Shown in pieces: positions 13,909 to 57,557 of a stretch of DNA of 60,274 nt. The notes below the pieces were generated by a model. The model saw only the letters and a list, made by a program, of their open reading frames with translations. It ran no database searches and was not told where the DNA came from. Both the position numbers and the translations under genes were made by a program. Position 1 is the first letter of the stretch, and every line of letters starts with the position of its first letter. This DNA is from Melioribacteraceae bacterium (GTDB taxonomy: Bacteria > Bacteroidota > Ignavibacteria > Ignavibacteriales > Melioribacteraceae). The stretch covers positions 1 through 60,274 of the forward strand of contig JAIOZI010000027.1 of assembly GCA_021740785.1 (NCBI GenBank), written 5' to 3'.

Positions 13909-14997
13909 TTAGTTGATGAACAGCGATAGACCATTTTCGATTGCTTTCTTAATTTGTTTCTTCTCGACTGAAACATCAACGAGCAACTCGCCAATTCCTT
14001 TCAGTAAAACAAATTTAATTTTCCCGTCACGATTTTTTTTATCCCGCAACATAATTTTGATTATTTCATTTTCATCCGGTTTTTCAAGATCAAACTTTTG
14101 TGTGAATAATTTAATCGGCTCTAAGTGTTTTTCAAGTTCTGCAGTGGTTATCAAATTTAGTTGATGTGACAAGTATAACGCGCAGCTGATTCCCGTCACA
14201 ACGGCTTCCCCGTGTTTTAGTTTATGATTCTGCTGAACTTCAAGCGCATGTGCAAATGTATGACCGAGGTTCAGAATTTTCCTTAAACCGCTTTCTTTTT
14301 CATCTTGCCGAACTACTGCAGCTTTTATTTTTACAGACTCATAAATAATTTTTGTGATCACATCGCTTTTTAATTTAACAGCGTCTCGATAATTTTTTAT
14401 AAAGTATTTATTAAACGAATCATTCGACAAGAAAGCATACTTAACAACTTCTCCTAGCCCGCAATTTATTTCCTCCGGGGGAAGTGTTTTGAAAAACTTC
14501 GTGTCGACAATTACAAGTTCCGGTTGATAGAACGTACCGATAAGGTTTTTAGTGTTGTGGAAGTTGATTCCCGTCTTTCCTCCAATTGCACTATCGACAG
14601 AAGCAAGAAGTGTTGTTGGAAGATGGACCAATTGAATTCCCCGCATGTAGGTTGAGGCTGCAAAGCCGGCAATGTCACCGACAATTCCACCGCAGATAGC
14701 AATCAACGCCGAATCTCTTCCGTATCCGTTTTTTATTAATCTCTCATGAATTTTCTGTAATGTCTCGTAAGTTTTATTCTCTTCCTTTGCAGTGATAATC
14801 AACTTTTTTGCACCGGGATTTGCTTTAATTATTTTATCTATTACAGCTTTATGATACTTATAAACTTTACTGTCGATTACAAAAAAACGCTTTGCTTTAA
14901 TTTTATGTTTTTTCAGAAGAACATTAACATCCTTAATTCCCGAATCAATTATTACATCATAGTCTTGCGTTTGAGTGCTAACTTTAATTTTTCTCAT
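13909..14997 (-). CDS. aroB: 3-dehydroquinate synthase
   Basis: 362 aa from ATG 14997, chosen because it starts inside the end of aroK (14-nt overlap) and matches the family N-terminus; a longer frame up to 15066 would overlap aroK more. It turns DAHP into 3-dehydroquinate in the shikimate pathway, using NAD and a divalent metal. Visible motifs: GGIVGDIAGFAASTYMRG, LPTTLLASVDSAIGGKTG, GEVVKYAFL, the metal ligands within LNLGHTFAHALE and KHGEAV. Full length. Co-transcribed with aroK. Confidence 0.96.
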   Translation of the reverse strand: MRKIKVSTQTQDYDVIIDSGIKDVNVLLKKHKIKAKRFFVIDSKVYKYHKAVIDKIIKANPGAKKLIITAKEENKTYETLQKIHERLIKNGYGRDSALIAICGGIVGDIAGFAASTYMRGIQLVHLPTTLLASVDSAIGGKTGINFHNTKNLIGTFYQPELVIVDTKFFKTLPPEEINCGLGEVVKYAFLSNDSFNKYFIKNYRDAVKLKSDVITKIIYESVKIKAAVVRQDEKESGLRKILNLGHTFAHALEVQQNHKLKHGEAVVTGISCALYLSHQLNLITTAELEKHLEPIKLFTQKFDLEKPDENEIIKIMLRDKKNRDGKIKFVLLKGIGELLVDVSVEKKQIKKAIENGLSLFIN

Positions 14998-15535
14998 TAA
15001 TAAATCTCTTAATTTTTTTTGCAATTTTATCAACTGTAATTCCGACGGGATAGTTATCGGAATCAATAATTAAATCAGAGCCTTCATAATATTTAGATCT
15101 CTCGTTCAACATTCTCTCAATCCGTTCAATAAATTCCTCCTTTGAATTTTCTGCCAGAACAAGATCGCGGAATAACGGTCTATCGATTTTATTCTTCAAT
15201 CTTTTATAGAGCATTTCCGGTGTTACTTTCAAATATATCAGCGTACCGGTAGATTTCAGCTTCGAGTAAATTTCATCGACGGTAATCGTTCCGCCGCCTA
15301 ATGATAAAACCAGGTTCTCCTGTGAAGCTATTCTCGAAATTGTTTCGTGCTCAATTTTACGAAACTTTTCTTCACCAAGTTCTTCAAAAATTTCAACTAT
15401 GGATTTTCCTTGTTCTTTTTCAATCACTTTGTCGAGATCATAAAAATCCCAGCCCAGTACATTTGCAAGAATCGGTCCGATTGTACTCTTACCGCTTGTC
15501 ATAAATCCGGTTAAATAAATTCTTTTTGTTCTCAT
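14984..15535 (-). CDS. aroK: Shikimate kinase
   Basis: 183 aa. Walker A is GFMTSGKST (residues 10-18), followed by the shikimate-binding DLD (FYDLDKVIE), FRKIEHE and the GGGT loop (LSLGGGTIT), with the lid Arg in IDRPLF. It phosphorylates shikimate with ATP. Length is standard. It is translationally coupled to aroB through a 14-nt overlap. On the minus strand a TATATTTG (reverse complement at 15554-15561) lies 18 nt before the ATG and fits the Bacteroidota -7 element, although no clear -33 TTG was found. Confidence 0.95.
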   Translation of the reverse strand: MRTKRIYLTGFMTSGKSTIGPILANVLGWDFYDLDKVIEKEQGKSIVEIFEELGEEKFRKIEHETISRIASQENLVLSLGGGTITVDEIYSKLKSTGTLIYLKVTPEMLYKRLKNKIDRPLFRDLVLAENSKEEFIERIERMLNERSKYYEGSDLIIDSDNYPVGITVDKIAKKIKRFINEKN

Positions 15536-15582
15536 TTGTATTTTTCTTTATACCAAATATATAATCAACCAAATTCTTAATC

Positions 15583-15694
15583 TTTTTCTTACTCTTATTC
15601 TTACTCTTATTCTTACTCTTACTCGAAGTTGGTTTTTGCATCCCTTTCTTAAATTCTTAGATTAAGATTAGGAGTAAGATAAAGAGTAAGAAAA
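15583..15694. repeat. Inverted-repeat hairpin, copy 1 of 3
   Basis: The left arm is a pyrimidine-rich run made of TTCTTACTCTTA units (15583-15624). The right arm GAGTAAGATAAAGAGTAAGA (15672-15691, continuing AAA) is its reverse complement with a one-base shift. Between them lies GAAGTTGGTTTTTGCATCCC, shared by all three copies. This copy has an expanded left arm with additional 12-bp units. It abuts four-helix-bundle remnant A. Confidence 0.85.
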
Positions 15695-15811
15695 CTAAAA
15701 TTTAGTCAGCATCATAAGGAAATTGTTTTTCAACTTTTCTTCCCAAGCTACGAATTCTAATGCTTTTTGATATACTTTCAATTTCTCGTGATCAAAATAA
15801 TATTTACTCAT
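15695..15811 (-). pseudogene. Four-helix-bundle (23S rRNA IVS-type, TIGR02436-like) remnant A
   Basis: A 38-codon frame on the minus strand beginning MSKYYFDHEKLKVYQKALEF, then VAWEEKL. This N-terminus is characteristic of four-helix-bundle proteins encoded in 23S rRNA intervening sequences and in dispersed stand-alone copies. Those are normally about 115-130 aa, so only the first helix remains; after EEKLKNNF the rest is deleted and the frame ends in LTKF-stop. A GGGGAT motif precedes the ATG. Repeated almost exactly at 15951-16094, with an offset of 283 bp between starts. Confidence 0.75.
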
Positions 15812-15890
15812 TTTATCCCCGGGCTGTTGACTGACAAAACCAATGTGATTTTATATTTCCTGATCAACTTTTGCTTTCTTAATCATAATC

Positions 15891-15977
15891 TTTTTCTTAC
15901 TCTTACTCGAAGTTGGTTTTTGCATCTCCTTTTAAATTCTTAGATTAAGATTAGGAGTAAGATAAAGAGTAAGAAAA
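15891..15977. repeat. Inverted-repeat hairpin, copy 2 of 3
   Basis: Left arm TTTTTCTTACTCTTACTC (15891-15908) and right arm 15955-15977 (GAGTAAGATAAAGAGTAAGA plus AAA) are complementary, enclosing the same GAAGTTGGTTTTTGCATC core. The left flank CTTAATCATAATC is shared with copy 3. It separates the two four-helix-bundle remnants. Confidence 0.85.
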
Positions 15978-16094
15978 CTGAAATTTAGTCAGCATCATAC
16001 GGAAATTGTTTTTCAACTTTTCTTCCCAAGCTACGAATTCTAATGCTTTTTGATATACTTTCAATTTCTCGTGATCAAAATAATATTTACTCAT
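15951..16094 (-). pseudogene. Four-helix-bundle (IVS-type) remnant B
   Basis: Second copy of the truncated frame, 47 codons on the minus strand. It is nearly identical to remnant A including the ATAAAATGAG start context; differences include LKNNFRMM instead of LKNNFLMM and CAG where A has the TAG stop, so the frame reads on into the hairpin arm and ends at 15951. The same internal deletion in both copies shows that truncation came before the tandem duplication. Confidence 0.75.
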
Positions 16095-16172
16095 TTTATC
16101 CCCGGGTTGTTGACTGACAAAACCAATGTGATTTCATAATTCATGAACAACTTTTGTTTTCTTAATCATAAT

Positions 16173-16261
16173 CTTTTTCTTACTCTTACTCGAAGTTGGT
16201 TTTTGCATCCCTTTCTTAAATTCTTAGATTAAGATTAGGAGTAAGATAAAGAGTAAGAAAA
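16173..16261. repeat. Inverted-repeat hairpin, copy 3 of 3
   Basis: Left arm TTTTTCTTACTCTTACTC begins near 16174 and the right arm is 16239-16261. Core and flanks match copies 1 and 2. It closes the block hairpin-remnant-hairpin-remnant-hairpin that fills the 788-bp gap between the aroK promoter side and the barrel-protein gene. Nothing else coding is seen in this gap. Confidence 0.85.
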
Positions 16262-16323
16262 AAGTAAAACAAAATCATTTTGTTGCATAAATATAGTTAA
16301 ATGAAGTCTCTTTTGAATTGATA

Positions 16324-17052
16324 TTATAAATGATATGCTGCGCCAATCGCAAAGGTAATTCCATTAATATTTACTTTTGACGGAAATGATGACACGGGAA
16401 TTCTATAAATATTATTTCCGTGTTCAAATTCATTTTTATCATAAGTACTAATAAACTCTATATCCGGATCGCGGAAACGCATTTCAGTCCGGATTGAAAT
16501 ATTGTCTCTAATCATATAATCCATTCCTACGCTCACCTGAATACCGTAAGCGACCTCGCGTGTTTCGCTTGAAACAGTTACATCTATAATATTACGAATA
16601 TGTTTTCCGAAGTAAATACCGAGTCCCCCGCCCATAAAAAACTTGAACCGTTCTGTTGAGAATGGAAGAAGATAGAAACCATTAAATTCAACCGGGATAA
16701 TACTGTAACCGTCTTCAACCGAAAAGTTTGAAATCAATCCCAAACTTGGAATGGTTCTTCCGCTTACATTTATCGTTTTCCTAATGTACTCTGCATTTAT
16801 CCCGACAGCAAACTCATCACTAATTTTATATCTAATTTCAACCGAAGGATGCAGCAGCCCGTCCATTGGAATAGATTGATTTCTTAAAAAAGGATCGGAT
16901 GCGTTCGGGTAATAGAACATTTCGGAAGTGGTTGTGTAACTGTAGCTCGCCGAAATTGAAAAGCCGTTATCGTAATACTGCGCATTGAGTTCGGCTGAAG
17001 AAAGAATAAAGATTACGGAAACCAAAAATATGTTAGAAAATAATTTCATCAT
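16324..17052 (-). CDS. Outer-membrane beta-barrel protein, OmpA/OmpX-type
   Basis: 242 aa. Signal peptide (ILSSAELNAQ). The mature part alternates hydrophobic and polar residues in short strands with aromatic girdles (SISASYSYTTTS, FFMGGGLGIYFGKH, VSVGMDYMI) and ends in the strand FAIGAAYHL, typical of a small porin-like barrel (PF13505-like). Function unknown. It follows PhzF on the same strand with a 50-nt gap, and its 3' end faces the IVS-like repeat block. Confidence 0.75.
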   Translation of the reverse strand: MMKLFSNIFLVSVIFILSSAELNAQYYDNGFSISASYSYTTTSEMFYYPNASDPFLRNQSIPMDGLLHPSVEIRYKISDEFAVGINAEYIRKTINVSGRTIPSLGLISNFSVEDGYSIIPVEFNGFYLLPFSTERFKFFMGGGLGIYFGKHIRNIIDVTVSSETREVAYGIQVSVGMDYMIRDNISIRTEMRFRDPDIEFISTYDKNEFEHGNNIYRIPVSSFPSKVNINGITFAIGAAYHL

Positions 17053-57360: not shown

Positions 57361-57557
57361 TTTACTTTTCTTTGTTTTTTATAATTATAATCTTCATCAT
57401 AATCAATCGAATTAAAAAGCTCGACTATTTTATATTGCTTTCTTCTTTGAATATATTCTACCAAAGCTTCGGTTACAGCAGCTTTTTTAGTTTTGTGCTT
57501 GCCTAATTTTAAAGCTTCTCTGATAAGCTTATCGTCTATTGCTAAATTGGTTGGCAT
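57357..57557 (-). CDS. vapB: VapB-type antitoxin
   Basis: 66 aa from ATG 57557, preceded by GGAGGT; a longer frame starts at 57572. MPTNLAIDDKLIREALKLGKHKTKKAAVTEALVEYIQRR is the ribbon-helix-helix/DUF2191-type motif, followed by a basic tail. It overlaps vapC by 4 nt (GTGA) and should bind both the toxin and its own promoter. Confidence 0.88.
   Translation of the reverse strand: MPTNLAIDDKLIREALKLGKHKTKKAAVTEALVEYIQRRKQYKIVELFNSIDYDEDYNYKKQRKVK

Follow-up and report, generated by a model that had tools for sequence, protein, structure and literature searches.

A probable dead, tandemly duplicated copy of an IVS-like element family living outside rRNA, upstream of a presumed aroK gene in a Melioribacteraceae bacterium

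The 788-bp spacer at positions 15,536-16,323 of the DNA described here (contig JAIOZI010000027.1 of assembly GCA_021740785.1, Melioribacteraceae bacterium; the window is the whole stretch of 60,274 nucleotides that was analysed) is very likely a dead, tandemly duplicated copy of an element family that resembles the intervening sequences (IVS) of 23S rRNA and lives outside rRNA. The family joins genes of one subfamily of S23 proteins, FDHEKL, to arrays of a conserved hexamer. It is real and widespread and, as far as found, undescribed: a literature search, which covered papers open without subscription, returned no description of hexamer hairpins at S23 genes outside rRNA.

The spacer has the order hairpin-ORF-hairpin-ORF-hairpin, and its features are read on the minus strand. 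Both neighbours are codirectional with the remnant: downstream lies an ORF with homologues in relatives (14984-15535, minus strand), which we take from its sequence to be aroK (shikimate kinase), and upstream an ORF (16324-17052, minus strand) that is presumably an outer-membrane-type protein gene, a name given by eye. The names of neighbours used further on (rpiA, miaB, E2, lpd, pilC and similar) are likewise assumed from the sequences. The spacer contains a direct repeat of 283 bp, with copy A at 15649-15931 and copy B at 15932-16214 (10 differences, 96% identity). Two truncated S23 ORFs are present, ORF A of 38 aa (15695-15811), whose N-terminal part resembles FDHEKL-type S23 proteins, and ORF B of 47 aa (15951-16094), in which a change to the stop codon seen in copy A lets the frame read on into the arm. 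Hairpin 1, on the 3' side in the direction of the ORFs, spans 15583-15694 with hexamer-array arms at 15584-15619 and 15659-15694; hairpin 2 spans 15892-15977 (core arms 15892-15904 and 15965-15977) and hairpin 3, on the 5' side, 16174-16262 (core arms 16174-16187 and 16249-16262). The arms are of the TTCTTACTC/GAGTAAGAA type and consist of arrays of the hexamer GANTAN, which, at no more than 1 mismatch in 17, are confined within the window to the spacer except for one match at 57388. Folded as sense (minus) RNA, hairpins 1, 2 and 3 gave z scores of -4.60, -2.48 and -3.37, with 1, 0 and 0 of 200 shuffles equally stable, and the entire 690 nt gave -5.93 (20 shuffles), the outermost arms also pairing. 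Repeat and fold scores confirm the arrangement and the duplicated unit of the preliminary description. Inverted-repeat arms that form a stem around the ORFs are found at this locus and widely in the family; no Rfam match reached the gathering score in the window, and the locus is not within an rRNA gene.

Both ORFs begin with MSKYYFDHEKLKVYQKALEFVAW, the start of four-helix-bundle genes elsewhere, and the protein query matched genes or parts of genes in 33 further genomes (146 searched including the source genome; E <= 0.01, best 8e-9). In the 5' coding part 53 of 60 bases are identical to the full-length gene at locus L090. All 12 aligned full-length relatives that are homologous to the ORF N-termini match PF05635 and TIGR02436, while neither ORF alone matches Pfam. 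The N-terminal homology supports the earlier assignment of the ORFs to the protein family of IVSs; as judged by sequence comparison, both begin as N-termini of the FDHEKL subfamily of S23/23S-rRNA-IVS four-helix-bundle proteins, a subfamily set apart here by its arrays. About 15 C-terminal codons of the ORFs are not assignable to any part of an S23 protein. The deletion is common to both copies, which is consistent with a deletion before the duplication.

Comparable decay and doubling occur elsewhere in the family. In G153, one of the Desulfococcaceae, a full gene (L295) is followed by a copy of its first 75 residues with 95% identity, and in G064, from another genus of the family to which the source organism belongs, a 121-residue gene (L317) is followed by a copy of its first 65. 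At both loci the downstream copy keeps the N-terminus and lacks the C-terminal part, as do both copies in the window. Several other FDHEKL copies contain stops or frameshifts. The case upstream of aroK is further along this path, both of its copies being short. A tandem copy of this kind needs no transposition, because two flanking hairpins recombining with each other would suffice for the doubling.

A subfamily profile built from the 12 full-length proteins found 438 stretches in GTDB genomes, the best 80 of which were analysed. Among the 73 of these that could be placed there are ten phylum-level labels, taken from submitters' titles, and some of the 80 loci are near relatives of one another. 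On viral contigs no relative was confirmed. Twenty of the loci were read by eye; in most, (TAATCN)n stands at one flank of the gene and (NGATTA)n at the opposite one, also in GC-rich genomes. The array motif (three hexamers GA[TGA]TAN or the complement) was defined after these 20 and the loci L031-L059 had been read; therefore no more than 60 of the 80 had gone unread beforehand, and some of the 80 coincide with L031-L059 places (e.g. L090 = L037, L096 = L036, L102 = L055). When as many as 2 mismatches per 17 bp are tolerated, arrays stand within 300 bp at 80 of the best 80 loci, on both sides at 72 and as an inverted pair at 71, against 29 of 743 control windows (320 bp, far from the S23 gene; a locus offers two such windows). 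The exact motif was found within 350 bp at 59 of these 80 loci (both sides 31, inverted 28), with 11 matches in 287,077 bases of far background; the reversed motif gave 4 matches near S23 genes and 0 far. Among relatives of the source genome a 16-bp exact arm is present at 24 of 29 loci (both sides 16, inverted 15), with 2 far matches in 34,285 bases; these 29 loci are a retrieved subset of the matches, exclude the source genome and include several genes that are broken or cut.

The arrays accompany 5 of 6 broken FDHEKL copies and 2 of 17 genes of other S23 subfamilies (1 of 7 in the source genome, 1 of 10 in relatives). GATTAN is the commonest hexamer and GAGTAN the next, in low-GC and high-GC hosts alike. 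Arms are more complementary within a locus than across loci (mean 19.3 vs 12.0 for 72 loci; maximum of 2000 permutations 13.8), which points to a common origin of the arms or to selection on pairing. The bias of wobble pairs toward the sense RNA is weak (102 vs 77, p 0.07; 40 vs 23, p 0.04).

At none of the best 80 of the 438 loci was rRNA detected at Rfam gathering scores, three tRNAs being the only matches; full-length genes with arms of this type, anticipated outside rRNA, do exist there in other genomes. Neighbour orientation is ++ at 47 of the 80, -+ at 13, -- at 4 and +- at 3, with at least one side undetermined at 13; between codirectional neighbours the gene runs in their direction by 47:4 (p 2.4e-10), and the remnant upstream of aroK follows this pattern. 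The first array begins a median of 13.5 bp past the stop codon of a near codirectional upstream neighbour (n=50), and the last ends a median of 25.5 bp ahead of the next start (n=46). Few pairs of neighbour proteins are common among the 80 loci. In many Ignavibacteria S23 elements are situated before lpd, mostly directly after E2 (L040, L042, L046, L049, L050, L100, L114, L123, L133, L135 and L148; L042 is cut before lpd). On the tree, six S23 proteins from this site fail to group as a single clade (AU p 0.034), a borderline value that argues weakly for possible repeated insertion at the E2-lpd site.

Empty sites were found at the locus itself and in another spacer. Genes resembling aroK are present in 56 of the 58 genomes searched, the source genome included. 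Thirty loci were returned with that of the source genome, and in 21 of the 29 relatives read an outer-membrane-type gene lies directly upstream; in all 21, which thus have the same gene order, the spacer measures 20-143 bp and is without arrays, compared with 788 bp in the source genome. The suspected empty aroK site is thereby established in relatives; all of these sites come from other genera, so the ends of the element are not fixed to the base. The spacer ahead of miaB was compared within one Ignavibacterial genus (11 loci, 12 genomes searched). The gene with hairpin-type arrays on both sides is present there in L250, L252 and L253. L258 has arrays of both directions and lacks the gene; L251, L255, L256 and L257 have one-directional arrays just ahead of miaB (L255 covers 41 bp upstream); and L254, L259 and L260 have no arrays, the last two being without adjacent rpiA. 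From L250 to L258 the first miaB codons resemble, by eye, hexamer units (ATGAGCAAGATC..., ATGAACAAGAGC...), as though the coding start had absorbed an arm. Distribution and empty sites support mobility of the family, which we infer from these comparisons; the loci compared showed neither a transposition event nor a target-site duplication nor an excised form.

Arrays are also numerous away from the genes. Of 20 gene-bearing genomes drawn from several phyla, 19 contain exact 23-bp arrays, with up to 476 overlapping matches, and the reversed motif gave 4 matches in total over these 20. Most were found in G148, G164 and G153 (the genomes of L105, L113 and L093), with 476, 199 and 162 overlapping exact matches, and these genomes are good systems for studying how arrays spread. 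Both arms lie within 200 bp at 16 of 20 array places in G107 and 15 of 20 in G153 (31 of 40); many of these places are near-perfect short-loop hairpins, a few have longer loops (100 to 270 bases), and loop or flank sequence is common to some of the hairpin copies. Over 146 genomes exact 23-bp arrays are present in 25 of the 35 with the gene vs 18 of the 111 that lack a strong FDHEKL match, counts that include arrays beside the gene itself and genomes not independent by descent; 10 of the 35 are without such an array. With a cut of six matches the numbers are 14 of 35 vs 10 of 111. G052 and G107 are array-rich without the gene (37 matches each). A further search for arrays over the family brought up genomes that were already in these counts. 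Of 42 genomes listed, 35 were taken as gene-bearing because their profile match was strong (E about 2e-24 or better, including decayed copies); the remaining 7 have weak matches to other S23 subfamilies.

An AlphaFold model of a full-length relative (pLDDT 91.9) is a four-helix bundle. Its closest PDB matches are the S23 proteins 2GSC and 2RLD (E <= 6e-4); weaker ones (E 0.02 and above) are Avd (4DWL) and the ribonucleoprotein of a diversity-generating retroelement (DGR; 8UBE/8UB7). The modelled protein has the fold that S23 proteins share with Avd of such retroelements (4DWL, 8UB7). PMC10053308 links PF05635 and Avd by structure and describes Avd as essential for retrohoming. Unlike a DGR with Avd, the locus has no reverse transcriptase, and over the 146 genomes such genes are associated neither with the FDHEKL gene (13 of 35 gene-bearing vs 39 of 111 other genomes) nor with arrays (17 of 43 array-bearing vs 35 of 103 others); the sole RVT_1 match in the source genome lies on contig C17, outside the window. 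A cycle driven by a reverse transcriptase was set aside on these grounds. A 2023 CRISPR mining paper (PMC10910872) mentions the 23S rRNA IVP in the legend of a figure about adaptation modules.

The closest likeness is to the IVSs of rRNA. As described in PMC4990558, these carry an S23 ORF within stem-forming inverted-repeat arms and are excised by RNase III; the ORF is often decayed, with a 176-bp deletion in one strain of Coxiella burnetii, heptamer short tandem repeats lie beside it, and the distribution is sporadic. The same text leaves the role of S23/IVS proteins and the mobility of rRNA IVSs open. With the 23S rRNA IVS of C. burnetii, as portrayed there, the FDHEKL elements have in common the S23-family ORF inside inverted arms, its decay, the tandem repeats and the sporadic distribution. 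They differ in location, none of the best 80 of 438 loci being in rRNA, in arms built from one conserved hexamer and in solo hairpins dispersed in the genome. Filing the locus as an rRNA IVS was rejected for the absence of rRNA from the window and from the 80 loci.

What stands upstream of aroK had been taken for a miniature, non-autonomous element, in which the short ORF-plus-hairpin unit spreads through intergenic DNA and is served in trans by full-length copies. The tandem duplication of the short form and the empty aroK site in relatives would fit this reading. The genome of the organism speaks against it and makes it very improbable. The 283-bp query gave 45 DNA matches including the aroK locus, those elsewhere being stretches of arms or hairpins, and no further copy of the unit was found; the spreading unit that had been proposed was thus seen at this one place only. 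Full-length copies acting in trans from the same genome were not found either: the subfamily profile search detected no full-length FDHEKL gene (genome 99.88% complete), and the 7 other S23 genes seen with the Pfam profile belong to other subfamilies, 6 of the 7 without arrays. When 50 S23 proteins were searched against 57 hairpin loci (17 from the source genome, 20 each from G107 and G153), the matches were the S23 locus of G153 itself (L295) and a weak one in L026. What is dispersed is the hairpin. Arm-hexamer arrays (22 bp exact) gave 74 overlapping matches in the source genome, with 0 for the reversed motif, at 18 separate places including the aroK locus; the idea of a dispersed element holds for hairpins without an ORF and fails for the ORF-bearing unit. 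From the searches, the intact FDHEKL gene appears to be missing from this genome while its hairpins remain, and the solo hairpins are likely non-autonomous copies.

Three further explanations concern the family as a whole. The hairpins could be palindromes of the REPIN kind that owe their movement to a Y1 (RAYT) transposase; the S23 gene would then be a passenger. REPINs, according to PMC3116915, are dispersed extragenic inverted doublets, and the hairpins described here are likewise dispersed, extragenic, built as inverted doublets and linked to a protein gene. Y1 genes are found in 42 of 43 array-bearing genomes vs 89 of 103 others (p 0.07), G085 with its one array match being the exception, and in 35 of 35 S23-bearing genomes vs 96 of 111 others (p 0.02). 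They are, however, nearly everywhere (131 of 146 genomes). Among 20 Y1 genes picked from genomes rich in arrays, a few of them with flanks truncated at a contig end, 5 have arrays beside them, compared with 80 of 80 S23 genes (best 80 of 438); in the source genome, which has 3 Y1 genes, they lie beside 1 of the 2 read. Unlike the REP/REPIN elements of that source, the linked gene is S23 and the arms are tandem hexamers in variable number. This explanation is improbable, though a Y1 partner may act in trans, for which the co-occurrence with S23 (p 0.02) would speak. We give the same low standing to a vertically inherited, non-mobile S23 gene whose arrays are binding sites controlling the neighbours, the patchiness being due to loss or decay. 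Strong conservation of the protein, the codirectional position between genes and arrays directly ahead of start codons agree with it, as does the S23 tree, whose branches mostly follow phylum (22 changes vs 43 shuffled), so that a large share of the spread may be ancient and vertical. It does not account well for locations that differ, with few neighbour pairs common to the 80 loci, for spacers that are empty in relatives of conserved gene order, or for up to hundreds of array matches per genome. Neutral hexanucleotide microsatellites beside a pseudogene by chance are scarcely credible: some arrays are indeed long simple runs, such as that at G000:C8:106252-106435, but the same hexamer recurs under about ten phylum labels, inverted around one gene subfamily, and the reversed-motif controls (0 in the source genome, 4 in 20 genomes) refute this as far as the family goes.

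The reading preferred here, a dead and doubled copy of an IVS-like family, can be put as follows. The intact element would be an FDHEKL-type S23 gene between inverted GANTAN arrays in a short intergenic spacer, mostly transcribed in the same direction as its neighbours, and the spacer would be transcribed with its operon. By analogy with rRNA IVSs, the arms may form hairpins of the RNase III type, and the S23 protein, with its Avd-like fold, would most likely bind the hexamer hairpins. The element would have spread by some mobility route; later, a large deletion in the ORF and then recombination between flanking hairpins would have doubled ORF and hairpin. More tentatively, and with some doubt on our part, the family could be a new class of mobile element in which an Avd-like S23 protein recognises hairpins of a conserved hexamer and moves or maintains gene-bearing copies in operons together with gene-less ones, the IVSs of rRNA being a specialised branch. 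The array-flanked subfamily offers a concrete candidate binding site and substrate with many natural solo copies, and its presence/absence sites allow tests of movement. The family also explains repeat hairpins and pseudogenes that are otherwise annotated as noise.

Some minor observations were made in the source genome (G000). The weak match in L026 (positions 1467-1652, contig C86) came from tblastn (E 2e-4, 35% over 63 columns). It is S23-like and riddled with stops, has a hexamer hairpin some 500 bp away, and may be chance or an old remnant. The array at G000:C8:106252-106435 is 184 bp long and has no inverted partner in the stretch read; an S23 gene from a different subfamily lies some 1.4 kb away. 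Four contig ends (the starts of C62, C4 and C80 and the end of C68; L003, L018, L022 and L023) have in common a sequence ATAGCAGCTTATT...CTGGCTCTGCCAGTTTAA, the first bases of which are absent in L022. It abuts a hexamer hairpin directly and appears to be the terminus of a multi-copy insertion sequence with a preference for hexamer hairpins.
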